Assembly (NCBI RefSeq): GCF_002973535.1
Contig: NZ_PVEP01000005.1
Coordinates: 1 to 64,000 of the forward strand
Length of the DNA: 64,000 nt
Source of the DNA: Albidovulum denitrificans
Lineage (GTDB): Bacteria; Pseudomonadota; Alphaproteobacteria; Rhodobacterales; Rhodobacteraceae
Direction: 5' to 3'
Shown here piece by piece: positions 12,738 to 52,445 of this stretch; the first letter of the stretch is position 1, and the number at the start of each line of letters is the position of its first letter. The notes under the pieces were generated by a model. It searched no databases and was not told where the DNA came from. It was given only the letters and a program-made list of their open reading frames with translations. Position numbers and translations under genes: made by a program.

Positions 12738-12832
12738 TATAGCATTTCGGGTTTACACTGAATCAGAATTTGAACTTATTTTGTTCGAATTCTGATACTT
12801 ACTTTCTCAACGTAAACCCGAAACGCTCTAAA
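12738..12832. repeat. Palindromic intergenic element, copy 1
   Basis: About 93 bp. The outer arms are AGCATTTCGGGTTTAC on the left and, on the opposite strand, AGCGTTTCGGGTTTACG on the right. The inner hairpin pairs TCAGAATTTGAAC with GTTCGAATTCTGA (one T-G pair). It lies between accA and the DUF2585 gene, which converge, and the TAG stop of the DUF2585 gene (12828-12830) is inside the right edge. Three more copies lie at 17429, 34530 and 52352. Confidence 0.9.
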
Positions 12833-13391
12833 GCGCGCCCTGCCAGTCGCGCACCGCATCAAGCGGCCAGATCAGCATCAGGACGTTCAGCGCGAGGCCG
12901 TCGCGGATCAGCCATGTCGTCAGGATCTCGAAGAACAGGATCAGCGTGACGCTGGCCCAAAGCGGCGCCTTCCGCGCGATCCAGAAGCCGACCATCATGG
13001 CGAGGATGTCGGCGACCGAGTTGATGACGCTGTCACCGTAATAGTCGAGCGATATCGTGACCGCGCGGTAACGGTCGATGATGATGGGGGAGTTTTCGAG
13101 GATCTCCCACCCCGCTTCGATCAGCGTCGCGATCAAGAGCCGCCAGCCGACCGAAAGCCGCCGCGCCACCAGCCAGAGCGCGCCGTAGAACAGCAGCCCG
13201 TGGATGATATGCGACGGCGTGTACCAGTCGCTCAGGTGCTGGGAATTCTCGCTCGACATGGTCTCGCCGTGCCAGAGCTTGACGTAGCCGCAGGCGCAGA
13301 TTGGAAGGCGCCCCATCGCGTAAAGGATCGTGGCGGCCAGAAGGACAGTCAGGCCCGTCAGCAGCCAGGGCAGTTTACGGTTCTTTACCAC
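12828..13391 (-). CDS. DUF2585 family membrane protein
   Basis: 187 residues with four to five predicted membrane helices. GRLPICACGYVKLWHGE after the first helix, NSQHLSDWYTPSHIIHG and EAGWEILENSPIIIDRYR are the conserved segments of the DUF2585 (UPF0314) family of alphaproteobacterial inner-membrane proteins; function unknown. It overlaps the upstream FMN-binding gene by seven bases and is the last gene of a five-gene minus-strand run. Its stop codon comes from the edge of the palindromic element, so its C-terminus may differ from relatives. Confidence 0.88.
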   Translation of the reverse strand: MVKNRKLPWLLTGLTVLLAATILYAMGRLPICACGYVKLWHGETMSSENSQHLSDWYTPSHIIHGLLFYGALWLVARRLSVGWRLLIATLIEAGWEILENSPIIIDRYRAVTISLDYYGDSVINSVADILAMMVGFWIARKAPLWASVTLILFFEILTTWLIRDGLALNVLMLIWPLDAVRDWQGAL

Positions 13392-13990
13392 AGCGATGCC
13401 TTCGCCCGGCCGGGCCAGTCCCGGTCATAGCCCGCGCCGTCGAAGCGGCCCTCGGTCATTTCTTTCAGGATGTCGCCGACGCTCGGCAGACCTTCGGAAG
13501 CATCCTCGCCCGACCACATCCCGGCCCGCATCAGGGCGCGGGCGCATTGGGTATAGATCTCGGCAATCTCGATCAGGATCACGGTGCGGGGCAGCTTGTC
13601 TCCCTTGGCGAAGGTCTCGCGCAGGGGGGCGTCCGCCGTGACCCTGGCGCGGCCGTTCACGCGGACCACGTTGTTCGATCCGGGGACGAGGAACATCAGG
13701 CTGACGCGTGGGTCGCGGACGATGTTGCGCAAGCTGTCGATGCGTTCGTTCCCGCGCCAGTCGGGCAGGGCAAGCGAGCCGGGGTCGATCTCGGCCACCA
13801 CCGGGCCGTCGTCGCCACGCGGGCTGGCATCGGTCCCTTCCGGCCCGACGGTGGAGAGGATGCAAAAGCGGGCGCGGGCGATCCATGCGCGGTAGGCGGG
13901 TGTCATCCGCCGCGCGACCTTGGCCAGCGACGCCTCGCCCGGTGTGCCGTAAAGCGCCTCGAGCGCGGGGAGGGTGGTGATGAACTCCAT
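13385..13990 (-). CDS. Pyridoxamine 5'-phosphate oxidase family FMN-binding protein
   Basis: 201 residues. RARFCILSTVGPEGTDASPRG, SLRNIVRDPRVSLMFLVPG and VRVNGRARVTADAPLR form the split-barrel FMN-binding fold; ALMRAGMWSGEDASEGLPSVGDIL at the C-terminus is typical of the MSMEG_1061-like subgroup rather than true PdxH. The reaction is unknown; a flavin- or F420-type reductase is possible. The gene lies three bases after the acyltransferase gene and overlaps the DUF2585 gene. Confidence 0.85.
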   Translation of the reverse strand: MEFITTLPALEALYGTPGEASLAKVARRMTPAYRAWIARARFCILSTVGPEGTDASPRGDDGPVVAEIDPGSLALPDWRGNERIDSLRNIVRDPRVSLMFLVPGSNNVVRVNGRARVTADAPLRETFAKGDKLPRTVILIEIAEIYTQCARALMRAGMWSGEDASEGLPSVGDILKEMTEGRFDGAGYDRDWPGRAKASLW

Positions 13991-13993
13991 GGA

Positions 13994-14728
13994 TCAGTCC
14001 TTTACCATCAGCCCCGCCTCGGCCATCAGGCGGTTCGAGGCGGTTTCGACGACGGGGGCGATTTCGGCCATAAAGGCCTCGACGCCTTGGCCAGCCGGGA
14101 TGCGCGGCAGGAATTCCACCACCGCAAGGCCCGGCTTGCGGTAGATGCCGTGGCGCGGCCAGAAGACGCCGACATTGGTCGCGGCAGGTACGCAGTCCTG
14201 CCCGAGTTCGTTGTAAAGAACGCCGACGCCGACCTTGTAGGGCTTCTTCGCCCCGGCGGCGACGCGGGTGCCTTGCGGGTAGATGATCAGCTGGCCGGGC
14301 TCTGCTGTCCCCGCCTTCACATCGGCCACCATCTTCTTCATCGCCTCGCTGCGCCGCCCGCGGTCGACGGGGACGCAGCCGATCTTGCGGGCGTACCAGC
14401 CCAGGATCGGCGCCCAGAGCAGTTCCTTCTTCATGATGAACTTTGGGCGCGGCACGGCCGAGACGATGATGATGATGTCGAAGAAGGACTGATGCTTGGC
14501 CGCGATGATGCATTCGTCCTGCGGCACCTCGCCCCTGACCTCGGACTTCAGCCCGATCAGCACGGCGGCCGAGGCGCGGACCCAGTTGCAATAGGCGTGG
14601 ACCGCATCAAAGGCGGCATCCTTGCGGAAGAGGACGAAGGGCGTCCAGTAAAGCGCGAGGATCGCCATGGCGAGGTACATCTGGACGATGAAGATCAGCG
14701 ACAGGAGGTATTGCAGCGCGGTTCTCAT
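13994..14728 (-). CDS. 1-acyl-sn-glycerol-3-phosphate acyltransferase family protein
   Basis: 244 residues. An N-terminal membrane anchor (LLSLIFIVQMYLAMAILALY) precedes the PlsC motifs: KHQSFFD (HX4D variant), GCVPVDRG and IIYPQGTR (the EGTR position reads QGTR). It should acylate lysophosphatidic acid to phosphatidic acid, or another lysolipid, at the inner membrane. The ATG at 14728 overlaps the ftsX stop by four bases (ATGA), indicating translational coupling; a longer upstream start would run deep into ftsX and is rejected. Confidence 0.88.
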   Translation of the reverse strand: MRTALQYLLSLIFIVQMYLAMAILALYWTPFVLFRKDAAFDAVHAYCNWVRASAAVLIGLKSEVRGEVPQDECIIAAKHQSFFDIIIIVSAVPRPKFIMKKELLWAPILGWYARKIGCVPVDRGRRSEAMKKMVADVKAGTAEPGQLIIYPQGTRVAAGAKKPYKVGVGVLYNELGQDCVPAATNVGVFWPRHGIYRKPGLAVVEFLPRIPAGQGVEAFMAEIAPVVETASNRLMAEAGLMVKD

Positions 14729-15630
14729 AGCACGGTCCTCAGCGAACGAAGCGCGGCGGTGCGGGTCGCCACGAAGGCCACGATAGCGGCAAGCGGCGGG
14801 ATCGTCAGCGGCCAGAGCCATTCGGCACCCTGAAAGGCGATGTCGGTCAGAAACCCGCCCGCATCCCCGGCCGACGGCATCAGCGCGATGGCGGTCATGG
14901 CGACCGCGGTTCCGGCCGCCGCCCCGGTCAGGGTGCGGGTGGTGAAGCGGCGCACGAAGGCGCGGGCGACATAACCGTCGCGCGCCCCGATCAGGCGCAG
15001 GGTGCGGATCACCTGCCCGTTGGCGGACAGGGCCGCCATCGCCGCCAGCGTCACCATCGCCGCCATGGCCGCGCCGATCAGCGCAAGGGAAATCAGCCCC
15101 AGCATCCGCATCCGGTCCGCCGCCGCGACCAGCGGGCGGCGCCAGCGCTGATGATCGTCGAGCGTCGCCCCCGGCACCTCGGCCGACAGGCGCAGCCGCA
15201 AGCCTTCGGCATCGAAGCCCTGGGGCGTTTCCTGAATGTCGATCAGTTGCGGGATCGGCAGGCTTGCCACCGGCAGGTCGGGGCCGAACCAGGGCGACAG
15301 CAGCGCCTGGGTTTCCGCCGGGTCCAGCGCGCGGGCGGTTTCCACGCCCGGCGTCACGGAAAGGATATCCAGAACGCGCTGGGTCTGCGTGGCCATCTGG
15401 TCGGCCGGGGCGGAGATGCGGACGGTGGCGCCATTGGCCAGCGCCTCGGACCAGCGGTCGGCCAGCCGTCCGGTCGCGACCGACAGGGCCAGCGCGAAGA
15501 CCGCGAGGAAGGCCATCGCGGCGGCGGTCAGAAGCGTCAGCCAGGCGGCCGCGCCCGATGGCGGCACGACGCGGTCGGTGCGGGTATCGCGGCCGAACAG
15601 CCGAAACTTGCGGGGCAGGGGCGCTTTCAC
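14725..15630 (-). CDS. ftsX: Cell division protein FtsX (ABC permease)
   Basis: 301 residues with four predicted membrane helices: one after the N-terminal cytoplasmic tail (WLTLLTAAAMAFLAVFALAL), two in the middle and one near the C-terminus. A periplasmic domain follows the first helix. FtsX with FtsE links the Z-ring to periplasmic murein hydrolase activation. It overlaps ftsE by four bases, and the acyltransferase gene overlaps its own end. Sequence conservation of FtsX is low, so the name rests largely on topology and on adjacency to ftsE. Confidence 0.85.
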   Translation of the reverse strand: MKAPLPRKFRLFGRDTRTDRVVPPSGAAAWLTLLTAAAMAFLAVFALALSVATGRLADRWSEALANGATVRISAPADQMATQTQRVLDILSVTPGVETARALDPAETQALLSPWFGPDLPVASLPIPQLIDIQETPQGFDAEGLRLRLSAEVPGATLDDHQRWRRPLVAAADRMRMLGLISLALIGAAMAAMVTLAAMAALSANGQVIRTLRLIGARDGYVARAFVRRFTTRTLTGAAAGTAVAMTAIALMPSAGDAGGFLTDIAFQGAEWLWPLTIPPLAAIVAFVATRTAALRSLRTVL

Positions 15631-16298
15631 AGATCGGCCCCCGCGTGCTGGACCGTGCGGTCGCGGATGCGCAGCACCCGTGCCGCGACCTGCGACTTGG
15701 CGGTGCGGATCAGGTTCATGTCATGGGTCGCGATCAGGATCGTCTTGCCCATGCGGTTCAGTTCGACCAGCAGGGTCAGAAGGCGCTGCGACATGTCCCA
15801 GTCGAGGTTGCCGGTCGGTTCATCGGCCAGAACCATCTCGGGCGCGGTGATGACGGCGCGGGCCAGGGCCGCGCGCTGGCGTTCGCCCCCCGACAGCGAC
15901 GGCGGGCGCGCCCTGGCATGGCCGGAAAGGCCGACCCAGGCCAGAAGCTCCTTCAACTCCTCCGGGTTCGCCTCGCGCCCCGCGACGGTCAGGGGCAGGG
16001 CGACGTTGTCGGCCAGCGGCAGGTGGTCAAGGAACTGGCAGTCCTGATGGACGACGCCGATCTTGCGCCGGGCCATCGCCACCGCGTCGCGCGACATGTG
16101 GCTGACATCCTGGCCAAAGATCTCGACCGTGCCGGCGATCGGCATCAGTTCACGGTAACAAAGCTTGAGAAAGGTGGACTTGCCCGCGCCCGACGGGCCG
16201 GTCAGGAAATGGAACGATCCGGGCGGAAGCGTCAGCGACACGTCCGACAGAAGCGGGCCGTCGCCATAGCCATGGGTCACGTTTCGGAATGCGATCAC
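15627..16298 (-). CDS. ftsE: Cell division ATP-binding protein FtsE
   Basis: 223 residues from a GTG start. Walker A is GPSGAGKST, the ABC signature is LSGGERQRAALARA, Walker B is MVLADEPTGNLD, and the H-loop is ATHDMNL. The GTG at 16298 gives the usual N-terminus (IAFRNVTHGYG) and has GGAGAAC at proper distance; a TTG nine codons upstream has none. FtsE is the ATPase partner of FtsX at the division site. It diverges from the zinc-ribbon gene. Confidence 0.9.
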   Translation of the reverse strand: MIAFRNVTHGYGDGPLLSDVSLTLPPGSFHFLTGPSGAGKSTFLKLCYRELMPIAGTVEIFGQDVSHMSRDAVAMARRKIGVVHQDCQFLDHLPLADNVALPLTVAGREANPEELKELLAWVGLSGHARARPPSLSGGERQRAALARAVITAPEMVLADEPTGNLDWDMSQRLLTLLVELNRMGKTILIATHDMNLIRTAKSQVAARVLRIRDRTVQHAGADL

Positions 16299-16361
16299 TG
16301 CCCGTTCTCCGCCCGCCGATGCCAATCTGCCGCGCGTTCCGACGAAATTTCAGCGGTTGCG

Positions 16362-16385
16362 ACAAACACTTGGACGATTGTTTGT
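16362..16385. promoter_or_regulatory. Inverted repeat between ftsE and the zinc-ribbon gene
   Basis: ACAAACA (16362-16368) and TGTTTGT (16379-16385) are perfect inverted repeats with a ten-base spacer in the divergent intergenic region. It could be an operator for either gene; no regulator is identified. Confidence 0.3.
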
Positions 16386-16468
16386 TGCTTGCTACAACAG
16401 GTTAACAAGAATGGCCAGAAAGGCGTGAGTATGCCTGACGTGAGGCTGAAGGTACGGGTAGAGACGAC

Positions 16469-17419
16469 ATGCGCTTGATATGTCCCAGTTGCGGCGCGCA
16501 ATACGAAGTGGATGAAAGCGTCATCCCGGATGCGGGCCGTGACGTGCAATGCTCCAATTGCGGCAATGCCTGGTTCCAGATGTCGGCGGCCCAGCTGAAG
16601 GCCGAAGAGGCCCGCGCGGCGGAAGCCGAAGCGGCGGGCGCCGAGGTCGATGAGACGGAAGACTGGGTCGAGGAGGCACCTGAAGAGGTCGCCGAGGCCG
16701 ATGAGCCGCCGCTGGAGATTGAGCCTTCGCAAGAGGTTGCGGCCGAGGAGACCGAGGAAGATTGGGGCGCGGCGGAGGACGTGGCCGAGGACACCGCCGA
16801 TGCGGTGGAGGAACCCGAGGCCGCGCCAGCGCCCGAGGAACCCGCCCCCGCGCCGAAGCGCAAGACGCTCGATGATGCGGTGATGAACGTGCTGCGCGAA
16901 GAGGCCGACCGCGAGCGTCGCGCGCGCGAGGCCGAGGGCAGCCTGATCGAGACCCAGCCCGATCTGGGCATTCCCGCCGAAGCCGCCGCCGCGTCGGTCG
17001 CCGCCGCCGTTGCGGCCGCGCAAGACGACGATGCGCCGGAGGTCGAGGACGAGGTCTACGACCCCGAGAATGAGGACTCCGTCGTCTCGCGCGCCGCCCG
17101 GAAAGAGCTTTTGCCGGATATCGAGGAGATCAACTCCTCCCTCCGCGCGACCTCGGACCGGGGGGGCGAGGCGGCTTCGGTCGATGCGCCCGCGACCTTG
17201 CGGCGTCGGCGCAGCGGCTTCCGCATGGGCTTTGTCACCGCCATCGTGATCGCCGTGATCCTGTTGCTGGTCTATGCCTTCGCGCCCGCGATTTCCTCTG
17301 CCGTGCCTGCCGCGTCGGGCGCGATGGAGGCCTATGTCGCAGGCGTCGACGGGGCGCGCAGCTGGCTGGATGCCACCTTGCAGGGGCTGACCGCGTCAAT
17401 GACGGATGGCGAGACCTGA
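16469..17419 (+). CDS. Zinc-ribbon (MJ0042-type) membrane protein with acidic linker
   Basis: 316 residues. The first 37 residues form an MJ0042-type zinc ribbon (CPSCGAQYEVDE ... CSNCGNAWF, two CxxC pairs). A long Glu/Ala/Pro-rich, highly acidic region follows (about 40-150), then a single membrane helix near residues 250-275 (FVTAIVIAVILLLVYAFA) and a short periplasmic tail. Such proteins are standard neighbours of ftsEX in Rhodobacterales; function is unknown. The gene ends nine bases before palindromic element copy 2. Confidence 0.85.
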   Translation: MRLICPSCGAQYEVDESVIPDAGRDVQCSNCGNAWFQMSAAQLKAEEARAAEAEAAGAEVDETEDWVEEAPEEVAEADEPPLEIEPSQEVAAEETEEDWGAAEDVAEDTADAVEEPEAAPAPEEPAPAPKRKTLDDAVMNVLREEADRERRAREAEGSLIETQPDLGIPAEAAAASVAAAVAAAQDDDAPEVEDEVYDPENEDSVVSRAARKELLPDIEEINSSLRATSDRGGEAASVDAPATLRRRRSGFRMGFVTAIVIAVILLLVYAFAPAISSAVPAASGAMEAYVAGVDGARSWLDATLQGLTASMTDGET

Positions 17420-17428
17420 CCGCCGCCC

Positions 17429-17521
17429 TATAGCATTTCGGGTTTGCACTGACTCAGAATTCGAACGTATTTCGTTCGAATTCTGATACTTGCTCTCTCA
17501 ACGAAAACCCGAAACGCTTTA
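17429..17521. repeat. Palindromic intergenic element, copy 2
   Basis: The inner stem is perfect: TCAGAATTCGAACG (17454-17467) and CGTTCGAATTCTGA (17473-17486) around TATTT. The outer arms AGCATTTCGGGTTT and AAACCCGAAACGCT flank it. It fills the gap between the convergent zinc-ribbon and TIGR02302 genes, and differs from copy 3 at about six positions by my count. Confidence 0.92.
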
Positions 17522-17528
17522 GCCAGGG

Positions 17529-20153
17529 TCAGAAGCGTTCGAGCAGCCGCTTGAGGTAGTCGAGTTCGACCGTCGGCCGGGTCTGGTCGGCAGAGCGGCG
17601 GCGGATTTCATCCAGAAGATTGCGCGCGCGGCGATAGACATCCTCACCCCCGAGCATCGCCTGGTCGGTGCCGACGCGGCCCGATTGCCCGGTCGAGCGG
17701 CCAAGCGGATCGCGGGACGTGTCGCGGCGGGCCTCGCGGGTCGTCTGGCCCTGATCGGATTCCGTGCCTTCGCCGTTCCGGGCCATCGCCTGACCCAGGT
17801 TGCGCATCCCTTCACGCAGGTTCTCGATCGCGTCGGCCTGCCGTTCGATGGCGCCCGCCGTGTCGCCGCGCCGCAGCGCCTCTTCGGCGCCGTCCATGGC
17901 GCGGCCCGCATCGTTCAGCGCCTGCCGCGCCGCATCGCCTTCGGCCGAAGGGCTGCCGGGCAGGTTGCCCTCTTGCTGGCGCAACATCTCGCGCAGCGCA
18001 TTCTGGCGGTCCGCAAGGCTGCCGCCGGGGCGCTGCCGGGTGCCGTTCTGGCCCTGATCGCCGCCGCCCTGATCGCCGGACATGCCGCCGTCTCGGCCCG
18101 CCTGCCCCTGCTGATCGCCGGGCTGGCCATCCTGCCCGTCGCCGCCGGGCTGCCCCTGTTGGCCCTGACCGCCTTCGGGGTTGCCGAACTGGCGCTGAAG
18201 GTCGCGGAAGGTGTCGTCGGACAGGCCCTGCTGGCCGCGCAGCGTGTCGCGCAGGCCGTTCATCGCCTGATCGCCCGGCCCCTGCTGCCCCTGACCGCCC
18301 TGACCTTCGGTCACGCGAAGGTTCTGCATCATGCGCGACAGTTGATCGAGCAGTTCCTGCGCCTCGGCCATGCGGCCCTCTTCCATCAGGCGCTGGATTT
18401 CGTCCATCATCTGCTGAAGCTGGTCGCCGGTGATCTGCTGGCCGGAATTGTCGGCCTGCTGGTTCGGCTCATCCGCGCCCTTGCGCTCCATGTTCTCGGC
18501 CAGTTTGCGGATATAGTCGTCGGTCGCTTGCCGAAGCTCATCCATCAGCTTCTGGATTTCCTCGGGCGAGGCGCCGTTGCGGATCGCCTCGGACAGGCGT
18601 TCCTGCGCCTGCTGCATGCGCTCAAGCGCGCTCGACAGACCGCCATCCTCGATCAGAAGCGCGATGTCCCAAAGCGCGTCGGCGGTTTCGTCGCGCAGAT
18701 CGGCGCTCAGCGGGCCCTGCGCCAGCGCGGCGTCCAGCCGCCGCATGGCGACGCGCAGCATCAGATAGGCGCGTTCGTTGCGCAAAAGCCCTTCGGGCCG
18801 GTGGGTCATCGCGTGCAGAAGCTGCGAGGTGCGCGGGCCGTTGTCGCGGGTCCAGAGAAGGTCGCGGCGCAGTTCCACGACGGCGTTCGCCACCGGGTCG
18901 AAGAAGCGGCGACCGGGCAGCGCAAGGTCTACCGTATAGCTGGCGCCGGTCTGGTTGCGACCGTCCGTCACCTCAAACGTCATGCGGACGGGAAGGTTCG
19001 ACCAGGCGTGTTTCGACGCATCCTCGACCAGTGTTTCGGAGAACGCCGCGCGTGAGCCGGTGATGGGAAGCGGCAGGTCATAGGTCAGCGGGTCGCGCGC
19101 CTCGGGCGCGGGGGTCAGGCCATAGCGGCGGTCCACCTTGTCCATGTCGAGCGTGATGACCGCCCGCCCGGTGGTGACGGCGTAGTCATCGGCCGCGCTG
19201 AAGGGCTGCGACATGGCGCCTTCTGCATCGCGCATGACCGCGCCGTCGATCTTCACGGTGGGCGGGGCGTCGGGCAGGACGGTCAACTGCCAGTCGCGTG
19301 GGGTTGGCCCGGTGATGGAAAGGCGGCCCGACCGGATCGCCTCGAACTCGACCGCCTGAAGGGCGGTGTCGGGGTCGGGCGCGGGGGCGGTGTCGGCTGG
19401 CAGGTCCGCGATGTCCTGGGTCACCGCGATGTCGCCGGGCTTGCCGTAAAGCCGCAGGATGATGCGGCTGCCTTCGGGCAGGGTGAGGGCATCGCCTTCG
19501 ACGGCGTTCAGGTAGACGCTGGGCTTGCCGGTATAGGCGGGCGGTTCGGCCCAGCCTTCCCACGAAGGCCCGGCGGCCAGCGCCCCGCCGGTGCCGCCCG
19601 TCATCGCGACCCGTGGCGCATCGGCGACGCGCCAGAGCGATCCGAAGCCTATCGCCATCACCAGCGCGGTCAGCGCGGCATAGCGCAGCGCGAAGGGGTC
19701 GCGCGTGGCAAGCCGCAGATCGGGCATCTTCGGCCGCGCGGCCCTGGCCCGTTCGGCCATCCGCGCGATATGGGCGCGCCAGACGGCAAGCGAGCCTGCA
19801 TCGCCCGCGCCAAGCGCCTGCGCATCGGTCAGCGCCGCGATGGGCCGCCCCGGCAGGCTGGCATCCAGCCGTTCCAGCGCCTCGGCCCGCGTCGGCCAGC
19901 GGAACTGCCGCACGCCGCGCACCAGCGACCAGACCAGAACCGCCAGAACGGCGAGCGAGCCGATCCACAGCACCTCGACCGGAAGCCAGTCATGCAGGCC
20001 GAAGGCAAGGGCGGCGATAACGGCGAAAAGAAGCGTCCAGACCGGCCAGAAGCCCCGCGTGATCCGTTCGGCCAGCATTCCGGCCCGCGTCAGGCGCACG
20101 GGCCATGAGAGGCGGCGAAGCGTCTCTTCCGGGCTGGCGTTCGGGTCGGTCAT
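17529..20153 (-). CDS. TIGR02302/DUF4175 family large membrane protein
   Basis: About 874 residues. The N-terminus has two or three membrane helices (within residues 35-95 and near 165), followed by a large beta-rich region with EGWAEPPAYTGKPSVYL and then helical segments. The C-terminal third is rich in Gln/Gly with repeated GQ-type runs (about 640-760) and helices such as IQRLMEEGRMAEAQELLDQL. This architecture is that of TIGR02302 proteins found near lysA in alphaproteobacteria, role unknown, possibly envelope. The ATG at 20153 (MTDPNASPEE) is chosen over one eight codons upstream. lysA ends upstream after a gap of about 50 bases. Confidence 0.88.
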   Translation of the reverse strand: MTDPNASPEETLRRLSWPVRLTRAGMLAERITRGFWPVWTLLFAVIAALAFGLHDWLPVEVLWIGSLAVLAVLVWSLVRGVRQFRWPTRAEALERLDASLPGRPIAALTDAQALGAGDAGSLAVWRAHIARMAERARAARPKMPDLRLATRDPFALRYAALTALVMAIGFGSLWRVADAPRVAMTGGTGGALAAGPSWEGWAEPPAYTGKPSVYLNAVEGDALTLPEGSRIILRLYGKPGDIAVTQDIADLPADTAPAPDPDTALQAVEFEAIRSGRLSITGPTPRDWQLTVLPDAPPTVKIDGAVMRDAEGAMSQPFSAADDYAVTTGRAVITLDMDKVDRRYGLTPAPEARDPLTYDLPLPITGSRAAFSETLVEDASKHAWSNLPVRMTFEVTDGRNQTGASYTVDLALPGRRFFDPVANAVVELRRDLLWTRDNGPRTSQLLHAMTHRPEGLLRNERAYLMLRVAMRRLDAALAQGPLSADLRDETADALWDIALLIEDGGLSSALERMQQAQERLSEAIRNGASPEEIQKLMDELRQATDDYIRKLAENMERKGADEPNQQADNSGQQITGDQLQQMMDEIQRLMEEGRMAEAQELLDQLSRMMQNLRVTEGQGGQGQQGPGDQAMNGLRDTLRGQQGLSDDTFRDLQRQFGNPEGGQGQQGQPGGDGQDGQPGDQQGQAGRDGGMSGDQGGGDQGQNGTRQRPGGSLADRQNALREMLRQQEGNLPGSPSAEGDAARQALNDAGRAMDGAEEALRRGDTAGAIERQADAIENLREGMRNLGQAMARNGEGTESDQGQTTREARRDTSRDPLGRSTGQSGRVGTDQAMLGGEDVYRRARNLLDEIRRRSADQTRPTVELDYLKRLLERF

Positions 20154-20202
20154 CGGCCTTGGGTATCGCCCCCGCATCAGGCCGCCGCGCGGGATTGCGC
20201 GG

Positions 20203-34521: not shown

Positions 34522-34529
34522 CCCCGGTC

Positions 34530-34622
34530 AGAGCATTTCGGGTTTTCACTGACTCAGAATTCGAACTTATTTCGTTCGAATTCTGATACTTGCGTTCTCA
34601 ACGGAAACCCGAAACGCTTTAA
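34530..34622. repeat. Palindromic intergenic element, copy 3
   Basis: It carries AGCATTTCGGGTTTTCACTG at the left, an inner hairpin TCAGAATTCGAAC/GTTCGAATTCTGA, and AAACCCGAAACGCTTTA at the right. It fills the gap between the convergent ispB and dehydratase genes; the TAA stop of the dehydratase (34619-34621) lies inside the right edge. Confidence 0.92.
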
Positions 34623-35596
34623 AGCTGCGGGAAGCGGTCAAGCGCCTGGCGGAAGATGCCGGGATCGACATTGCCGCCCGAAGCGACGGCGATGACGGCG
34701 TCGCCTTCTACCTCATCCTTGTGAAAGAGCGCCGCGGCCAGTGCGACCGCGCCGCCGGGTTCCAGAACGATCCTCAACCGGCTGAACGCGGCGGCGATGG
34801 CCGCCAGCGCCTCATCATCGCTGACCGCGATACCGGGGCCGCAGAGGCGGGACATGATCGGGAAGGTCAGGTCGCCCGGTTGCGGCGTGATGATCGCGTC
34901 GCAGATCGACCCGTCCATGCGGGGGTTGCGTTCGATCCGTCCGGCGGCGAGCGAACGTTTCGCGTCATCGAACCCCTCGGGCTCTGCCGGTCTTGCGCGC
35001 AGGCCGGGGGCGTGCGCCTCAAACGCCAGCGCGATGCCCGACGTCAGGCCGCCCCCGCCGCAGCAGACAAGGACATCGGCGCGATCCACCCCCGCCTCGG
35101 CTGCCTGGCGCGCGATTTCAAGCCCGGTGGTGCCTTGACCGGCGATCACCTGCGGTTCGTCGAAGGGCTTGATAAGGGTCAGCCCGCGATCCTCGGCCAG
35201 GGCGCCGCCGATGGCGTCGCGGTCGCCGGTGGCGCGGTCGTAAAGCACCACCTCGGCCCCCAGCGCGCGGGTGTTGTCGATCTTAACGCGCGGCGCGTCA
35301 GAGGGCATCAGGATCACGCAAGGCGCGCCATGTTCGCGCGCGGCCAGCGCCACGCCCTGCGCGTGGTTGCCCGAGGAAAAGGCGATGACGCCCTGCGCGC
35401 GGGTTTCCGGCGGCAGGGCGGAGACCGCCGACCAGCCGCCGCGAAACTTGAAAGATCCGGTCTTTTGCAGGCATTCGGCCTTTACGAAAACCCGCCGCCC
35501 GGCCATTTCGTCAAGGAAGGGGGAGGTCAAAAGCGGTGTCAGCGTTGCATGGCCCTTCAGCCGTTCGGCCGCGGCCTCGATCATCCCGATATTCAT
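34619..35596 (-). CDS. Threonine/serine dehydratase family protein
   Basis: 325 residues, PLP fold type II. Lys50 in TGSFKFRGG is the PLP lysine, AFSSGNHAQGVA binds the substrate and CCGGGGLTSGIA binds the phosphate. No ACT regulatory domain is present, so it resembles catabolic threonine dehydratase or serine racemase rather than IlvA. The upstream hydrolase gene overlaps its start by four bases. The stop codon comes from palindromic element copy 3. Confidence 0.9.
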   Translation of the reverse strand: MNIGMIEAAAERLKGHATLTPLLTSPFLDEMAGRRVFVKAECLQKTGSFKFRGGWSAVSALPPETRAQGVIAFSSGNHAQGVALAAREHGAPCVILMPSDAPRVKIDNTRALGAEVVLYDRATGDRDAIGGALAEDRGLTLIKPFDEPQVIAGQGTTGLEIARQAAEAGVDRADVLVCCGGGGLTSGIALAFEAHAPGLRARPAEPEGFDDAKRSLAAGRIERNPRMDGSICDAIITPQPGDLTFPIMSRLCGPGIAVSDDEALAAIAAAFSRLRIVLEPGGAVALAAALFHKDEVEGDAVIAVASGGNVDPGIFRQALDRFPQL

Positions 35597-45156: not shown

Positions 45157-45697
45157 TACATTGATCGAGGATGCCCGGTGGAATTCCGCCGGTATCGAGG
45201 ATCTGGCAGAAGCCGCGGCCCGCGCGGTCATGGAGACGCATGGCCTGCCGCCGGAAGGATATGAGATCAGCCTTCTGGCCTGCGACGACCGGCGCATCGC
45301 GGCGCTGAACGAGGATTTCCGGGGCAAGCCGGTGCCGACCAACGTCCTGTCCTGGCCATCGGAGGAACGCGGGGCGGAGGCGGACGGCGCCACGCCCCAT
45401 CCGCCCCGGCGCGGGGTCGGGGGGATGCCGGCAGAGCTTGGCGACATCGCGATTGCCTATGAGACCTGCGCGCGCGAGGCGGAGGAACACGGCAAGGCGA
45501 TGGCCGATCACGTCACGCATCTTCTGGTCCACGGCATGCTGCATCTGTTGGGATACGATCACATTCGCGACCGTGACGGCGACCTGATGGAGGCCACCGA
45601 GGTCAGGATACTTGCGAAGCTGGGTGTGAACGACCCATATGAGTGGACCGGCGCAAGGCGTGCGCCGGATGAACTGGAAAGAGATGATGGGCGATAG
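45128..45697 (+). CDS. ybeY: Endoribonuclease YbeY
   Basis: 189 residues, longer than the E. coli protein (155). YbeY is a metal-dependent RNase in rRNA maturation and quality control. The zinc motif HLLVHGMLHLLGYDH holds three His, and LNEDFRGKPVPTNVLSWP is conserved. An insertion of about 20 residues (ERGAEADGATPHPPRRGVG) separates these blocks. The gene overlaps phoH upstream and corC downstream. Confidence 0.95.
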   Translation: MTATMEPLVDTLIEDARWNSAGIEDLAEAAARAVMETHGLPPEGYEISLLACDDRRIAALNEDFRGKPVPTNVLSWPSEERGAEADGATPHPPRRGVGGMPAELGDIAIAYETCAREAEEHGKAMADHVTHLLVHGMLHLLGYDHIRDRDGDLMEATEVRILAKLGVNDPYEWTGARRAPDELERDDGR

Positions 45698-46568
45698 CTT
45701 GGACGGGTCACCATCGGCGCAGGACGCGTCGGAACCCTCGGACAGTAGCGGGCAACGCGGTTTCTTCGGGCGGATTTTCGACGCCTTCTCGACGGGTGAC
45801 AGCGATGAGGAGGGCGTGGCGCGGGACGATAACGGCCTCGCGCGGCCTTCGACCCCGCTGCCGGGGATCGGCAACCTTCGCCGGATGCGGGTTGAGGATG
45901 TGGCGATCCCGAAGGCGGAAATCGTGGCGGTGCCGGTCAACGCCAGGCTGGAAGACCTTGTTACCGCGTTCCGCGACAGCGGTTTTTCGCGCCTGCCTGT
46001 GTTCAAGGGAACGCTCGACGCGCCGCTGGGCCTGATCCACCTGAAGGACCTTGCGCTTCAGCAGGCGTTCACCGACCCCAAGCCACGCTTCAACCTGCGC
46101 AAGATGCTGCGGCCGTTGCTGTACGCGCCGCCCTCGATGCCCATCGGCGTCCTGTTGCAGAAGATGCAGTCCGAACGCATCCACATGGCGCTGGTGATCG
46201 ACGAATATGGCGGCGTCGATGGCCTTGTGACGATCGAGGACCTGATCGAGACCGTGATCGGTGAGATCGAGGACGAACACGATACGTCCGAAGACGGTCT
46301 CTGGGTTCTGGAGAAACCGGGGCAGTACCTTGCGCAGGCGCGCGCGCCGCTGGGCGAGTTCGAGGCGGAGATCGGCCTGAAGCTTGCCGATGAGGCCGAG
46401 GATGAAGAGGTCGATACGCTGGGCGGGCTTCTTTTCATGTGGCTTGGTCGGGTACCCGCGCGGGGCGAGGTCATTCCCCATGAAAGCGGGGCGGAGTTCG
46501 AGGTGGTCGATGCCGACCCGCGCCGGATCAAGCGGCTGAGGGTCCGCTTGCCGCAGGCCGGGGCGTGA
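45687..46568 (+). CDS. CorC/HlyC-type CBS domain protein
   Basis: About 293 residues from the ATG at 45687 (45684 is equally possible). A low-complexity N-terminal region precedes paired CBS domains (RVEDVAIPKAEIVAVPVNAR ... IGVLLQKMQSERIHMALVID) and a C-terminal CorC_HlyC domain (GLWVLEKPGQYLAQARAPLG). CorC (YbeX) is linked to divalent cation efflux and ribosome metabolism. It overlaps ybeY by 11 bases and is followed by lnt. Confidence 0.88.
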   Translation: MGDSLDGSPSAQDASEPSDSSGQRGFFGRIFDAFSTGDSDEEGVARDDNGLARPSTPLPGIGNLRRMRVEDVAIPKAEIVAVPVNARLEDLVTAFRDSGFSRLPVFKGTLDAPLGLIHLKDLALQQAFTDPKPRFNLRKMLRPLLYAPPSMPIGVLLQKMQSERIHMALVIDEYGGVDGLVTIEDLIETVIGEIEDEHDTSEDGLWVLEKPGQYLAQARAPLGEFEAEIGLKLADEAEDEEVDTLGGLLFMWLGRVPARGEVIPHESGAEFEVVDADPRRIKRLRVRLPQAGA

Positions 46569-46572
46569 TCCC

Positions 46573-48102
46573 TTGGCGTTCGGCCTGCGCGCCGGGCTGA
46601 GGCCGCCCGCCCGGCCCCCTCTGTCGATCCTTGGCCTATGCGTGGTGCTGGGCGCGCTGGCTGCGGCGGGGCAGGCGCCGTTGGGCTATTGGCCGGTCAC
46701 GCTGGCCGCGCTTGCGGTGCTGGCCGAGATCATGGTGCGGCATGCCGGGGCCGGGCAGATGATCTGGACCGGATGGGCCGCCGGGACGGGGTATTTCGCG
46801 GCGGCGCTTTTCTGGATCTATGAGCCGTTTCAGGTCGAGGCCGACATCTACGGCTGGATGGCGCCCTTTGCGGTGGTGCTGATGGCGGTGGGCATGGCGC
46901 TTTTCTGGGCGCTTGCCGGGGGCATCGCGGCCTTGGGGCGCGGGCGCGTGGGGCGCGCGCTGGGCTTTGCGATCGGCCTGACCGCGACGGACCTGCTGCG
47001 CGGCTATATCTTCACCGGCTTCCCCTGGGCCTTGGCGGGGCATGTCTGGATCGACACGCCCGTGGCGCAGATCGCCGCCTTCACCGGGCCGATTGGCCTG
47101 TCCGCGCTGACCCTGCTGGCGGCGGTGCTGCCGGTGATGGCGGTTCCGCTCTGGCGGCGTGTCGGGCTGGGCGTCGCGGGCCTTGCCCTGGTCGCGGCCT
47201 GCTGGGGTTTCGGCGCCGCGCGGCTGGCAGACCCGATCCCGCCGCGCAGCCCCGAAGTTCACGTCCGCCTCGTCCAGCCGAATGCACGGCAAGAGACGAA
47301 GTGGCAGCCCGAGGCGTGGCAGGCCAATCTTGACCGTATGCTGGGTGACAGCGCGCCGGGGCAGGGGACGCGGCCCGATCTGATCGTCTGGCCGGAAACC
47401 GCTATTCCCTTCCTGCTGGATCGCGCGGGGCCGCTTCTGGAGGACATGGCGATGGTCTCGGCGGGCGTCCCCATCGCCACCGGCATCCAGCGGCAGGAGG
47501 GCGCGCGCTATTACAACAGCCTTGCCGTGATCGGTGCAGGCGGGACGGTGCGGGCGACCTATGACAAATGGCACCTCGTTCCGTTCGGCGAATATGTCCC
47601 GCTTGTCGACCGGATCGCGGATCTTGGGATTTCGGCCTTCGCCGCGCAGGTCGGCCTAGGCTATTCCGCCGGGCCGGGCGCGCGGGTGCTTGATCTTGGC
47701 GCGGCCGGAAAGGTGCTGCCGCTGATTTGTTATGAGGCGGTCTTTCCCCAGGACCTGAACGCCGCGCCTGAGCGGGCGGACTGGATCTTGCAGATCACCA
47801 ACGATGCGTGGTTCGGCAATCTCTCAGGCCCCTATCAGCACCTTGCGCAGGCCCGGCTGCGGGCGATCGAGCAGGGTTTGCCGTTGCTGCGGGCCGCGAA
47901 TACGGGCGTTTCGGCGGTGATCGACGCGCGCGGGCGGGTGCTGCACGCGCTGGCGCTGAACACCGACGGGGTGATCGACGCGGCCGTGCCGGGGGCGCTG
48001 CCCCGGACGCTTTATTCCCGCACGGGTGATGTCCCGGCAACAATCCTTGTCCTCGCGGCGGGATTGGCGCTTCTCCTTTCCGGGCGTCGCAAACGCGATT
48101 GA
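46573..48102 (+). CDS. lnt: Apolipoprotein N-acyltransferase
   Basis: 509 residues. Lnt adds the third acyl chain to lipoproteins in the inner membrane. About seven membrane helices in the N-terminal half precede a nitrilase-like periplasmic domain with the catalytic Glu in WPETAIPF, Lys in YDKWHLVPFGEYVPL and Cys in ICYEAVFP. A final helix lies near 485-502. The TTG start at 46573 is the best available but has a weak ribosome site; it is four bases after corC. Confidence 0.93.
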   Translation: MAFGLRAGLRPPARPPLSILGLCVVLGALAAAGQAPLGYWPVTLAALAVLAEIMVRHAGAGQMIWTGWAAGTGYFAAALFWIYEPFQVEADIYGWMAPFAVVLMAVGMALFWALAGGIAALGRGRVGRALGFAIGLTATDLLRGYIFTGFPWALAGHVWIDTPVAQIAAFTGPIGLSALTLLAAVLPVMAVPLWRRVGLGVAGLALVAACWGFGAARLADPIPPRSPEVHVRLVQPNARQETKWQPEAWQANLDRMLGDSAPGQGTRPDLIVWPETAIPFLLDRAGPLLEDMAMVSAGVPIATGIQRQEGARYYNSLAVIGAGGTVRATYDKWHLVPFGEYVPLVDRIADLGISAFAAQVGLGYSAGPGARVLDLGAAGKVLPLICYEAVFPQDLNAAPERADWILQITNDAWFGNLSGPYQHLAQARLRAIEQGLPLLRAANTGVSAVIDARGRVLHALALNTDGVIDAAVPGALPRTLYSRTGDVPATILVLAAGLALLLSGRRKRD

Positions 48103-48140
48103 CCCCGAGGGGGCGACGGGGTAGGCAAAGCGGCACACCT

Positions 48141-48187
48141 GCCACAACGGCTTCCTGGCGTGGCGGGGCTGACCCCCTAATGGAGCA
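48141..48187 (+). promoter_or_regulatory. SAM/SAH riboswitch in the metK leader
   Basis: GCCAC (48141-48145) pairs with GTGGC (48160-48164) around AACGGCTTCCTGGC, and ATGGAGCA (48180-48187) follows, with the Shine-Dalgarno GGAG inside it. This order and the loop sequence closely match the known SAM/SAH riboswitch class (RF01727) found upstream of metK in Rhodobacterales, whose loop pseudoknots with the ribosome site. It should block metK translation when S-adenosylmethionine or homocysteine is abundant. Confidence 0.9.
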
Positions 48188-48192
48188 TTTTC

Positions 48193-49359
48193 ATGTCCCG
48201 ACAAAACTACGTCTTTACCTCGGAAAGCGTTTCCGAAGGGCATCCCGACAAGGTCTGCGACCGGATTTCGGATGCCGTGCTTGATGCGTTCCTTACCGAA
48301 GATCCCCATTCCCGTGTCGCCTGCGAAACCTTCGCGACCACCGACCGCGTCGTCATCGGCGGCGAGGTGCGCGGCCCCGGCGCCGTCATCGAGCGGGTGG
48401 AGGAGATCGCCCGCGAATGCGTCAAGGACATCGGCTATGAGCAGGATGGCTTTCACTGGGCCAACCTGAAGGTCGACAGCTACCTGCACGCCCAGTCCGC
48501 CGACATCGCCCAGGGCGTCGATGCCTCGGGCAACAAGGATGAGGGCGCGGGCGATCAGGGCATCATGTTCGGCTATGCCGTGGATGAGACGCCGGAGCTG
48601 ATGCCGGCGCCGATCCTTTATGCCCACGCGATGCTGCGCCGCCTGGCCGAGGTGCGCAAGAACGGGACCGAGCCGAAGCTTGGCCCCGATGCCAAGTCGC
48701 AGCTTTCGATCCGGTACGAGGGCGGCAAGCCGGTCGGGGTGACCTCGCTGGTGCTGTCGACCCAGCATATCGACCCGGCGCTGAGTTCGGCCGATGTGCG
48801 CGCGATCGTCGAGCCGCATATCCGCGACGTGCTGCCCGAGGGCTGGCTGACGGCCGAGACCGAATGGCATGTGAACCCGACCGGCAAGTTCGTGATCGGC
48901 GGGCCGGATGGCGATGCGGGCCTGACCGGGCGCAAGATCATCGTGGATACCTATGGCGGCGCCGCGCCGCACGGGGGCGGTGCGTTTTCGGGCAAGGACC
49001 CGACCAAGGTGGATCGCTCGGCCGCCTATGCGGCGCGCTATCTGGCGAAGAACGTCGTCGCCGCCGGCCTGGCCACGCGCTGCACGCTGCAACTGTCCTA
49101 TGCGATCGGCGTGGCGAAACCCTTGTCGATCTACGTCGACACCCATGGCACCGGCATGGTGGACGAGGCCGCGATCGAGCGTGCCGTGGCGCAGGCGATG
49201 GACCTGACCCCGCGCGGCATCCGCACCCATCTGGGTCTGAACAAGCCGATCTACCAGCGCACCGCCGCCTATGGCCATTTCGGGCGCGCGCCCGAAGCGG
49301 ATGGCGGCTTCAGCTGGGAGAAGACCGATCTGGCCGAGGTGCTGAAAAAGTCGGTCTGA
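48193..49359 (+). CDS. metK: S-adenosylmethionine synthetase
   Basis: 388 residues. MetK makes S-adenosylmethionine from methionine and [24 protein letters not shown], the [12 protein letters not shown] segment and [16 protein letters not shown] are the family signatures. Translation is expected to be controlled by the SAM/SAH riboswitch immediately upstream. A terminator lies directly after the stop codon. Confidence 0.98.
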
Positions 49360-49367
49360 GGAATGCG

Positions 49368-49397
49368 GGACCGGGCCATCGCGGCCCGGTCCTTTTC
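49368..49397 (+). terminator. Terminator after metK
   Basis: GGACCGGGCC (49368-49377) pairs perfectly with GGCCCGGTCC (49383-49392) over a five-base loop and is followed by TTTT. It begins eight bases after the metK stop. Confidence 0.9.
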
Positions 49398-49627
49398 GTT
49401 TCCGTCAGACTTGATTTGATCGTCCTGTCGCTGGTTTCATAAGCGTCGTGCTGTCCCCCCGCCCCTCGGAAAGGCCCGTTCCGCGCACGTCCGGTTGCCC
49501 AGGTACACGAAAAACGGGTGTTCGCACTTGATCCGAAAGGCGGTCGCGGCGAAACATGGGGCAGTTCGTGGGATCAAAGGTACAGACGGCCAGGCCGTCT
49601 CCGGCGTAGCAATGGGATGTCGGTAAC

Positions 49628-50734
49628 ATGTATGGTGGTTATGGCGGGGATGCGGTGCGGGACGGTGTCGGTGTCGGGCATGACGCGGGCCTGAATGCCG
49701 CCCGCCGGATTCCGCGCAAGTTGACCATTGTCCTGATCAACGGCCAGAAGCTGCGCCTGTCCTTCGGCGATTTCTGGCAGATCATCACCGACCGCTATTC
49801 GCTTATCTACTTTCTGGTCGCGGACGGGTTGGTAGCCTATCTCTACCCGGTGGAAAGACTCATCGGGCTGCCGTGGTGGCATGTCGTGACCGTATTCGTG
49901 GTCATGGCTTTCGTGGTTATCGCGGCCCTGACGGGCCTTTTCGCGATCCTGCTGCGCTTTCTGCACCGCTTCGACCGGCTGGTGATCCCCGGCCCGCTCC
50001 TGATGTTCTGCGCCGTCGCTGTCATGGAGATGGTCAAGTGGGAATATGTCTATTACGTCTGGGGGCCGCACTGGCCTTATTTCGGCGGGCTTTTCGAAGC
50101 TTTTGTGAGCGAATATGTCTATTTCCTGATGCTTGAGGTTCTTTATTCCATCTTTGTGATCCCCCATGCGCGGGCCTATTCCGGTGTCTTGGTCGGCCCG
50201 CGCGTTTCGCCGGGCGCCGATGTCGCGGGGCATCGGTCACAGGCGGTCATTCCCTTTCGTCCCCGCCCCCGCGCCGAGGCGCCGCTGCGCCCGGCGCCCC
50301 CGCCGGTGGAGGCGCCAAGACCCAGGGCCGCGGCGCCGAAGCCCGCCGCGAACAGGGCCAGCGCGCCGGTCAAGGCAACGCCCCCTTCGACCAGCATCAC
50401 GCTTGCCGGGGAGAGGATCGACCTGCGCAAGCTTGAAACGATCCGCGCCGAAGAACATTACATCCGCGTCACCACCTCTGAGGGCGAGAGGATGCTGCGC
50501 CACCGGATCAAGGACGCGGTTGCCCTGATACCTGACGCCTACGGGCTTCAGGTGCATCGCTCGCTCTGGATCGCTTTCCCGACGGTGGAGCGCTGCGCGC
50601 CGTCGCCCGATGGCAAGTTGCTGATCGTCCTGAGGGACGGCAGCGAGATCGGCGTTCCGCGTGCGCGCCGCCGTGCGGTTGAAGCCCGGCTGAAAGAGGG
50701 GCGTCGCTTCACGTCCCCGGCGGCGCCGACCTGA
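49628..50734 (+). CDS. Membrane-anchored LytTR-type DNA-binding protein
   Basis: 368 residues. Four predicted membrane helices fall in about residues 55-180 (for example VVTVFVVMAFVVIAALTGLF and LLMFCAVAVMEMV). A Pro/Ala-rich linker follows to about 255, then a LytTR domain (ITLAGERIDLRKLETIRAEE ... LQVHRSLWIAFPTVERCA). LytTR domains bind DNA, so this would be a membrane-tethered transcription regulator without a kinase or receiver. The 230-base upstream gap after the metK terminator holds no gene I recognise. Confidence 0.85.
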   Translation: MYGGYGGDAVRDGVGVGHDAGLNAARRIPRKLTIVLINGQKLRLSFGDFWQIITDRYSLIYFLVADGLVAYLYPVERLIGLPWWHVVTVFVVMAFVVIAALTGLFAILLRFLHRFDRLVIPGPLLMFCAVAVMEMVKWEYVYYVWGPHWPYFGGLFEAFVSEYVYFLMLEVLYSIFVIPHARAYSGVLVGPRVSPGADVAGHRSQAVIPFRPRPRAEAPLRPAPPPVEAPRPRAAAPKPAANRASAPVKATPPSTSITLAGERIDLRKLETIRAEEHYIRVTTSEGERMLRHRIKDAVALIPDAYGLQVHRSLWIAFPTVERCAPSPDGKLLIVLRDGSEIGVPRARRRAVEARLKEGRRFTSPAAPT

Positions 50735-50922
50735 CTGGCGGGGCTATGACCGGCAGGCTGCCGGGGTCAATTGGCGACAGATAGGCTGACGCCAACGGGC
50801 GCGGCCCGTCAGTTCAAGACAATTCCCGACGATTGATGCCCCGATTCTGGCGCGAAGGCGAAATGCGGCCTATCGCGCGGCAACCGTTCGCGAACGGCTG
50901 TAACAATCATCGGGAGGACCAC

Positions 50923-51420
50923 ATGCTGAAAACCATCTACGCTCCGCTTCTGATTGCAACCCTGGCCGTGTCCGGCTGTGTCGATGAGGGTGGCGGGAAC
51001 TCCGGCCCGCGTTCCGGCAGCGCCATGCCGGGCGATATGGTGTTGAACGTGACCCACACCGAGGTGATGCCGAACATTCTGGGCGGAAAGGATGTTTTTG
51101 GTCGGACCCGCGACACCGGCAAGACGATGGTGATCCTTGACTCGGCCGCGAATGGCAAGGCGGTGTTCCGGCGCCAGGACGTGGCCATCCTCAGTTCCAA
51201 GAACACCGGCAATATCTCCCCCACCGTCATCAATACCGGCAAGAAGGCGTCGGATGTGATCGTCCTCCCGTCGATGGCGCCGAAGGACGAGATTGGTCCG
51301 ATGCGTGAGACCTCGTTCACCCTGACGGCGGCGCCGGGGAACAATGCGATCACGATCGACGGCCATACGCTGACGGTTCTGTCCGTTCAGAATGGCATCA
51401 TCAACTATAGCGCCAACTGA
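50923..51420 (+). CDS. Lipoprotein of unknown function
   Basis: 165 residues. The signal peptide MLKTIYAPLLIATLAVSGC ends in lipobox AVSGC, so Cys19 is lipidated. The mature part is Gly-rich, with GGKDVFGRTRDTGKTMVILD and a conserved-looking KDEIGPMRETSFTL block, mostly beta by appearance. CGGGAGGACCAC provides the ribosome site. The M48 protease gene begins 8 bases after its stop, so the pair is probably cotranscribed. Confidence 0.75.
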   Translation: MLKTIYAPLLIATLAVSGCVDEGGGNSGPRSGSAMPGDMVLNVTHTEVMPNILGGKDVFGRTRDTGKTMVILDSAANGKAVFRRQDVAILSSKNTGNISPTVINTGKKASDVIVLPSMAPKDEIGPMRETSFTLTAAPGNNAITIDGHTLTVLSVQNGIINYSAN

Positions 51421-51428
51421 GGCGCGCC

Positions 51429-52271
51429 ATGTGTGAGGCCTGCAATCCGGCCCGGACACCCCAGCGGTACAGGCACCGCTGGGAGATGCCGATGGTCGTG
51501 ACGGCCTGGATGATTTCGCTGTTGGCGGTCGGGGTAAGCCTGACCGCCACCGACGATATAGTCGCCAGCGCCAGGGCAAACGACGTCGAGTGGCTGCTGA
51601 ACCTTGGCTATCTCGTCCTGTTCACGCCGATCATGGCGCTGATTACGCGGTTCTACCGGGCCGCGAAGGAGCGGTCGAACGGGATCAAGGTCGGGCCGCA
51701 GCAGTTTTCCCATATCTGGGATATCTATACCGATCTCCTGACGCGGTTCGACCTGCCGACCGCGCCCGCGCTTTATGTCGTCAACGGCAATGGCGCGGTG
51801 AACGCCTATGCCATGTCCTGTTCGCTGCGCCGCAAATATGTGGTGCTGAACGCCGAGATCGCCGGTCTTGGGCAGCACGACCCGGAGCTTGTTCGCTTTG
51901 TGCTGGCCCATGAGCTTGCGCATCACAAGCTTGGCCATGTCGCTTTGGTGCGCATTTCCATTGCGGCGGTCATGCATGCGCTGTTCCTGCCCGGAAAGGC
52001 CATGATCCGCGCGCAGGAATATTCGGCCGACCGGCTGGCCATGGCGGTCTGCCCCGAGGCCGCCGATACGCTGGTCTTCCTGTCGGTCGGGCCATGGATG
52101 GCGCAGCAGTTGAATGCCGAGGCTTATGTCGACCAGATGGTCGAGGATAGCCGCGGATTGATGGTGCGCGTCGTGAATATGGCCAGCGATCACGCGGTGA
52201 TGAGCAAGCGCTACAAGGCGCTGCGCGACATTGCCAAACATGGTTTTGACAAGCATGGCGAGATGTTCTGA
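51429..52271 (+). CDS. M48-family zinc metalloprotease
   Basis: 280 residues. Two membrane helices (about 21-40 and 57-75) precede the catalytic domain, whose zinc motif is HELAHHKLGH (His161, Glu162, His165) with the third ligand in QEYSADR (Glu198). M48 enzymes (HtpX, YcaL types) degrade misfolded membrane or outer-membrane proteins. It follows a lipoprotein gene closely and is preceded by a LytTR membrane regulator, suggesting an envelope-related group. Confidence 0.88.
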   Translation: MCEACNPARTPQRYRHRWEMPMVVTAWMISLLAVGVSLTATDDIVASARANDVEWLLNLGYLVLFTPIMALITRFYRAAKERSNGIKVGPQQFSHIWDIYTDLLTRFDLPTAPALYVVNGNGAVNAYAMSCSLRRKYVVLNAEIAGLGQHDPELVRFVLAHELAHHKLGHVALVRISIAAVMHALFLPGKAMIRAQEYSADRLAMAVCPEAADTLVFLSVGPWMAQQLNAEAYVDQMVEDSRGLMVRVVNMASDHAVMSKRYKALRDIAKHGFDKHGEMF

Positions 52272-52303
52272 GTACGCCCGTGATGGGTTCTGCGACAAGG
52301 CGA

Positions 52304-52351
52304 GTTGATGTGGTTTCAGGTTGATGCCGTTTCGAGTTGATGTGTTTTGAG
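52304..52351. repeat. Three 16-bp tandem repeats next to element copy 4
   Basis: GTTGATGTGGTTTCAG, GTTGATGCCGTTTCGA and GTTGATGTGTTTTGAG follow without gaps at 52304, 52320 and 52336. A further GTTGATG occurs at 52457 just after palindromic element copy 4, 16 bases beyond where the next unit would end if the element were removed. The element therefore appears to sit inside the array. Confidence 0.7.
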
Positions 52352-52445
52352 CTAAAGTGTTTCGGGTTTTCGTTGAGAAAGTAAGTATCAGAATTTGAAC
52401 GAAATAAGTTCGAATTCTGAGTCAGTGTAAACCCGAAATGCCATA
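52352..52445. repeat. Palindromic intergenic element, copy 4 (inverted)
   Basis: It reads in the opposite orientation to copies 1-3: GTGTTTCGGGTTTTCGTTGA at the left, an inner hairpin TCAGAATTTGAAC/GTTCGAATTCTGA, and GTAAACCCGAAATGCC at the right. It lies in the 290-base gap between the M48 and trmB genes, which point the same way, unlike the other copies. Confidence 0.9.

Follow-up and report, generated by a model that had tools for sequence, protein, structure and literature searches.

The first 64,000 nucleotides of contig C5 of the 4.1-Mb Albidovulum denitrificans genome (G000), called the window here, contain four copies of a palindromic intergenic element. This element is very probably a non-autonomous miniature inverted-repeat transposable element (MITE) derived from an insertion sequence (IS) of the IS630 family (Tc1/mariner type), which piles up in stop codons through tolerated insertion. 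What is unusual about it is that it inserts into stop codons and usually restores the stop, so that dozens of unrelated genes have acquired one strand of the same hairpin behind their stop. A preliminary description of the window had proposed a MITE- or REP- (repetitive extragenic palindromic) type element, perhaps used as a bidirectional terminator. The MITE reading is borne out by the presence of terminal inverted repeats, TA duplication, about 105 copies in the genome, empty orthologous sites and ends like those of IS630 elements, to which a defined target, a stop-codon register and an orientation bias are added by the present analysis.

Structure, spread and relatives of the element

The element consists of an 89-bp core and one TA on each side (93 bp in total). 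Its ends read TAnAGCRTTTCGGGTTT and AAACCCGAAACGCTTTA, i.e., terminal inverted repeats are present. The outer arms of 14 bp, TAnAGC(A/G)TTTCGGGTTT and AAACCCGAAACGCTTTA, flank an inner 13-bp hairpin, and the bases inward of the arms are TGAATC on the left and TGAGAAA on the right, the latter read from the right end. The A/G difference between the outer arms results in an A-C pair on one strand and a G-U pair on the other. The four window copies, with their outer arms and inner hairpin, are present where they had first been placed, their limits being refined to the core and its TAs, and copies 2 and 3, reported to differ at about six positions, differ at 6 of the 89 core positions. Folding of all four beats that of dinucleotide shuffles on both strands (z from -4.6 to -11.1). 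As for membership of a known annotated family, a possibility raised in the preliminary description, no Rfam family covers the window copies when the whole window is searched at gathering scores, and the one match obtained for copy 3 and its flanks at E≤1 did not reach its gathering score and lay elsewhere than in the copy.

A genome-wide search, as initially suggested, revealed further copies. The terminal repeat AGCRTTTCGGGTTT (at most one mismatch) has 109+103 matches in the own genome compared with 0+1 for the reversed control, which excludes chance. The copy-level statistics given below were obtained with 80 full copies from 56 stretches of this genome, window included; these copies are dispersed, none of them lies within a called gene, and the core is too short for a transposase. 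Among the 22 genomes of the genus, the terminal repeat was found 58+52 times in G020 and 35+27 times in G013, and less often but above control in G001, G002, G006 and G007, with a handful of matches in both G010 and G014 and counts near control in the remaining 13. At E≤0.001, nine genomes out of 41 contain the whole element, namely the own one and eight others of the genus. A 248-genome sample of the family yielded it for the own genome and for G002, with a single occurrence in G157 and a partial one in G192. It had no match in plasmid and phage collections, and in IMG/VR there were 31 single end matches, none with a partner end at the spacing of the element. Copies of the own genome have a mean identity of 90%. 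Between the consensuses of five genomes the identity is 84-93%, which indicates that the element was amplified separately in them. AGCA is the left-arm sequence of the own genome; in the relatives, AGCG prevails.

Some loci depart from the usual arrangement. Short forms of 43 bp, made of the outer arms only, occur at L069:13488-13530, L103:8233-8275 and G001:C12:819877-819919. In both of those in the own genome (L069 and L103), the lost stretch is bounded by the same two TCA triplets, and the short forms might represent either a recurrent deletion or a mobile mini-form. Clusters were also observed, with three copies in 1.4 kb shortly beyond the window end (L110:2362, 2856 and 3650), and a pair separated by 62 bp within a single gap (L075:3958 and 4109).

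Related ends are found well beyond the genus. A 27-position motif of the right end, AAAGCGTTTCGSGTTTNNNTTGAGAMA (up to 3 mismatches), is present in 35 of the 394 genomes of the family set, from 34 genera including the own one, with no match for the reversed control; some of the 3-mismatch matches are probably due to chance (e.g., L453 and L454). At most of the 28 loci inspected from other genera, as judged by eye, this motif delimits elements of about 100 bp that are palindromic and have different cores, and the related elements that were measured (G192, 105 bp; G175, 106 bp) likewise end in TA. The exact 17-mer end yielded four single matches outside the genus in the same 394 genomes, two of which belong to such related elements with other cores (G175 and G192); the other two (L343 and L344) looked like chance and were discarded. 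Ends with 3 mismatches were mostly at control level in G157, G175 and G192. These findings suggest a MITE superfamily that extends over many Rhodobacteraceae genera and is linked to IS630.

The link to IS630 comes from larger elements. At L466 of G281, both ends are found 634 bp apart and enclose transposase fragments, one of which matches DDE_3 (E 9.6e-20). Among ten annotated IS630 elements from plasmids that were compared, out of 40 listed, the closest is that of Roseovarius sp. THAF8 (L477), with the ends TAAAGCTTTTCGATCAAAGTTTGAATC (left) and TAAAGCGTTTCGAGATTAGTTTGAGACA (right), inside which TGAATC on the left is shared with the MITE and TGAGACA on the right resembles its TGAGAAA. L466 and L477 have the same end architecture, partly the same letters and the same left/right asymmetry as the MITE; the other plasmid elements have related ends with different arm letters, and L232 of G009 has the general form of IS630 ends. 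L471 and L473 were taken as IS630 remnants through resemblance only, and Pfam gave no match for the second fragment of L466 or the 46-aa end of L471. The initial remark that no transposase is nearby agrees with the absence of DDE_3 matches from the own genome and with the location of its four DDE_Tnp_1 matches on contigs other than that of the window, only these two families having been searched. DDE_Tnp_1 matches occur in 8 of 9 genomes. DDE_3 and DDE_Tnp_1 loci of the genus were considered as candidate parents and rejected, none of those inspected having these ends (at most 2 mismatches) on both sides.

That the element is palindromic, intergenic and present in many copies with a species-specific consensus would also suit a REP/BIME (bacterial interspersed mosaic element) or REPIN-type element that a RAYT (Y1) transposase mobilizes. 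Such an origin is nevertheless highly improbable, given the length of 93 bp, the inverted terminal repeats, the duplication of TA and the presence of ends similar to those that DDE (IS630) elements have. Size and structure lend no support to the REP-type reading, no search for a RAYT gene having been made.

Target, stop codons and orientation

The target is YTAR, the TA of which is duplicated. Both TAs are intact in 56 of the 80 copies, and 50 of these reconstruct to YTAR (CTAA 20, CTAG 18, TTAG 11 and TTAA 1). A pyrimidine precedes the left TA in 78 copies (C 60, T 18) and a purine follows the right TA in 72 (G 45, A 27), and no strong consensus beyond YTAR emerged from a tabulation of ten flanking positions per side. 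The copies are located in convergent (47), tandem (28) and divergent (5) gaps; element-free gene pairs of the same stretches number 54, 301 and 92, respectively. When copies were mapped against gene ends, 101 3′ ends and 21 5′ ends were found within 60 nt of an element end. The preliminary description was to be refuted by a lack of other copies and of a preference for 3′ ends; both are present, and the preference is sharper than had been noted, with 52 of the 80 copies inside a stop codon.

In 49 of the 80 copies, the gene that faces the right end terminates exactly at the element boundary, at one single offset. The stops are now TAA (43), TGA (3) or TAG (3), and TAA is composed of the target TA and an A of the element. 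No gene on this side ends at the stops offered by the element in the other two frames, ends that random truncation would produce. At the left end, the gene enters the element in 14 of the 80 copies: 8 of these genes read TAT and six more codons to TGA, thus gaining seven extra codons, 5 stop immediately, in which cases the left end begins with A or G, and 1 stops at -3. Both genes of a convergent pair are struck by 11 copies. The same stretches contain 389 free YTAR sites (97 coding, 242 intergenic and 50 in stop codons), so that stop codons account for 52/80 copies as against 50/389 free sites (Fisher p 6e-21), or 50/292 if only the non-coding ones are considered (p 6e-16). The right end alone is at a stop in 38 copies and the left end alone in 3 (p 1e-8), and G020 and G013 taken together show 13 right and 3 left (p 0.02). 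As YTAR is its own reverse complement, the orientation bias is not explained by the target and must have another cause.

In the mechanism proposed, a transposase would act in trans to excise the element at its TAnAGCRTTTCGGGTTT ends, and the element would be pasted into YTAR with duplication of TA. This cut-and-paste process presumably depended on a partner transposon that appears to be missing from the own genome. YTAR is scarce within genes here and arises from any pyrimidine followed by a TAA or TAG stop, as well as from the overlapping stops of convergent genes. With the right end facing the gene, TA and the first base of the element, A, remake TAA, so that the insertion would do little harm, and with the left end facing it, TAT and seven extra codons usually result. 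Insertions of the former kind would survive, and copies would therefore gather in stop codons in one orientation, with the better-folding strand ending up as the 3′ untranslated region (3′UTR). Palindromes would thus crowd between convergent genes because YTAR lies in TAA and TAG stops and the element mends the stop that it breaks. The orientation bias is probably caused by selection rather than by a preference of the transposase, and the simplest account is a neutral one, in which stop-rebuilding insertions are tolerated.

Alternatively, the transposase itself might favor stop codons or gene ends beyond YTAR, leaving a small role for selection, and the excess of copies in the stop register over free non-coding sites is in line with this possibility. 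It is held to be unlikely, however: the free intergenic sites include promoter-side ones where insertion may be harmful, the flanks show no strong consensus outside YTAR, and a self-complementary target leaves the orientation bias in need of another cause. The element thus represents a natural test case for insertion preference versus selection.

The 3′ ends of 26 genes that stop at an element were queried in four relatives, where an element was considered present if the terminal repeat occurred with at most 2 mismatches within about 140 bases. One of 31 rows, a match to another place, was left out, and the remaining 30, a subset of the places listed, represent 10 of these genes. The stop of the orthologue has the same position in 27 rows and lies one codon further on in 2 and three codons further on in 1; at 29 of the 30 ends there was no sign of an element. 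The sole exception (L441 in G013) has an element in the very same stop codon as L087 of the own genome. At the site of copy 1 in G014, G012 and G013, accA and the DUF2585 gene end on each other at CTAAAG, with no element. The gap of copy 2 is element-free in G020, G008 and G009, and it contains a diverged copy of the element in G006 (L225). Occupation of the same site in two species (L441/L087 and L225/copy 2) might reflect either shared ancestry or hot spots. The element-free orthologous sites are too diverged to show the TA duplication base by base on both flanks.

Several points weigh against an IS630-derived MITE that accumulates in stop codons. At least one TA is altered in 24 of the 80 copies, and genes were called with a home-made codon-usage script, both in the own genome and in the relatives. 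The analysis turned up no IS whose arms are exactly these; DDE_3, absent from the own genome, has matches in just 4 of the 22 genus genomes, and such an end, with up to 2 mismatches allowed, is missing from the 30 DDE_Tnp_1 loci (of 34 matches) that were inspected. The relatives show the stop-codon habit to a lesser degree, with figures of 19 for the right end, 10 for the left and 3 for both among 63 copies (3 of 66 matches were left out, their ends being too degenerate), and it is thus strongest in the own genome. In other genera, where the TA closes a long frame in 8 of 31 cases, compared with 6 for the two other frames together, it is not established. Lastly, orthologues use TGA as their stop in 24 of 30 rows, so that the original TAA or TAG can be read from the left flank alone (38 of 49).

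The element as a 3′UTR

Right-end stop insertions place the minus strand of the element after the stop as a 3′UTR. This strand, with a G-U pair at the place of the A-C of the other, is the better-folding one in 79 of the 80 copies, with mean fold energies of -41.2 and -33.9 kcal/mol for the two strands. The idea of a bidirectional terminator did not gain support as far as intrinsic termination is concerned. Neither strand has a U-tract after the outer stem, the number of U per 8 nt in the 80 copies being 0-4 on the mRNA strand and 1-5 on the other, mostly 2-3, which argues against an ordinary intrinsic terminator. Around copies 1 and 2, the only ones so searched, a single terminator-like match falls on the element, where it coincides with the inner hairpin in copy 1; the stretch as a whole has 5 such matches compared with 4.1 in shuffles. 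From the alignment of copies, the G192 copy and 5 of 72 reference copies were left out. Two-sided pair changes across species affect 10 of 28 pairs (22 cells), as against 4.2 and 7.2 in shuffles and up to 9 pairs and 15 cells in slid controls. There is genuine, though less than overwhelming, support for the pairing being kept up.

These data bear on the possibility that the element is retained for work at gene ends, with a 3′UTR hairpin that stabilizes the mRNA or aids 3′-end formation, and with selection fixing both place and orientation. The proximity to gene 3′ ends, the better folding of the transcribed strand and the excess of two-sided changes over shuffles are favorable to it. It is nonetheless regarded as doubtful, as the mRNA strand has no U-tract, amplification was separate in each species and nearly all orthologous ends do without the element; moreover, the slid controls reach up to 9 changed pairs, kinship alone can beat shuffles without any structure, and palindromes may also be maintained as transposon ends. 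A related proposal, to which little likelihood is given, is that stop codons serve the element as a niche, such that dozens of genes share one structured 3′UTR in one orientation and are open to common control. If this were true, they would form a species-specific set of mRNA ends, controlled in common via stability, 3′-end formation, or one protein or small RNA. About fifty genes of one genome have a near-identical 3′UTR, the effect of which on mRNA is directly measurable.

As had been described, copies 1-3 of the window are in convergent gaps, and copy 4 is inverted in a tandem gap. Their coordinates are given in Table 1 with those of three other features of the window.

Table 1. Positions, in the window, of the four copies of the element and of other features
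Feature	Positions	Strand	Core	Flanking TAs	Context
Copy 1	12738..12830	+	12740-12828	12738-12739; 12829-12830	Right TA within stop codon CTA 12828-12830 (= TAG) of the DUF2585 gene 12828-13391 (-)
Copy 2	17429..17521	+	17431-17519	17429-17430; 17520-17521	Reconstructed target CTAG; stop of DUF4175 gene (17529-20177, -) at 9 bp; stop of zinc-ribbon gene (ends 17419, +) at 11 bp
Copy 3	34529..34621	+	34531-34619	left TA changed to CA; 34620-34621	Final core base and TA form stop TTA 34619-34621 (= TAA) of the PALP gene 34619-35596 (-)
Copy 4, inverted	52353..52445	-	52355-52443	52353-52354; 52444-52445	Tandem gap between Peptidase_M48 gene (51429-52271, +) and Methyltransf_4 gene (52562-53263, +)
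Second repeat, about 170 bp	12477-12650				Same accA/DUF2585 gap as copy 1; similar stretches (74-80%), at least 4 in G001 and at least 1 in G018
SAM/SAH riboswitch aptamer (RF01727)	48136-48187				Directly 5′ of a 388-aa open reading frame at 48193
12-base direct repeats	63663-63776

Relation to known mobile elements

Small palindromic intergenic mobile repeats are known in other hosts as the ERIC, Correia and RUP elements, and the RIME and Bru-RS repeats of rhizobia and Brucella are intergenic palindromic repeats of Alphaproteobacteria. The element resembles the former three in being small, palindromic, intergenic and mobile, and RIME and Bru-RS in being palindromic and intergenic; the window copies have no Rfam match. 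Searches of an open-access library yielded no description of this MITE family or of any MITE that targets and restores stop codons.

ISY100, of the IS630 family, inserts almost exclusively into TA, which it duplicates (PMC2170065). MITEPsy1 of Pseudomonas syringae is 100 bp long, has CTAG or YTAA as its target, generates a 4-bp duplication, is listed as "IS5?" and is thought to derive from ISPsy2 (PMC3189936). The present element is like MITEPsy1 in length and target, and unlike it in that 4-bp duplication and in the terminal repeats printed there. With the IS630-family (Tc1/mariner-type) ISs and MITEs, it has in common the inverted terminal repeats, the TA target and its duplication, and the architecture of the ends; it is set apart by an orientation-biased insertion into stop codons that rebuilds the stop, for which the literature searched showed no parallel.

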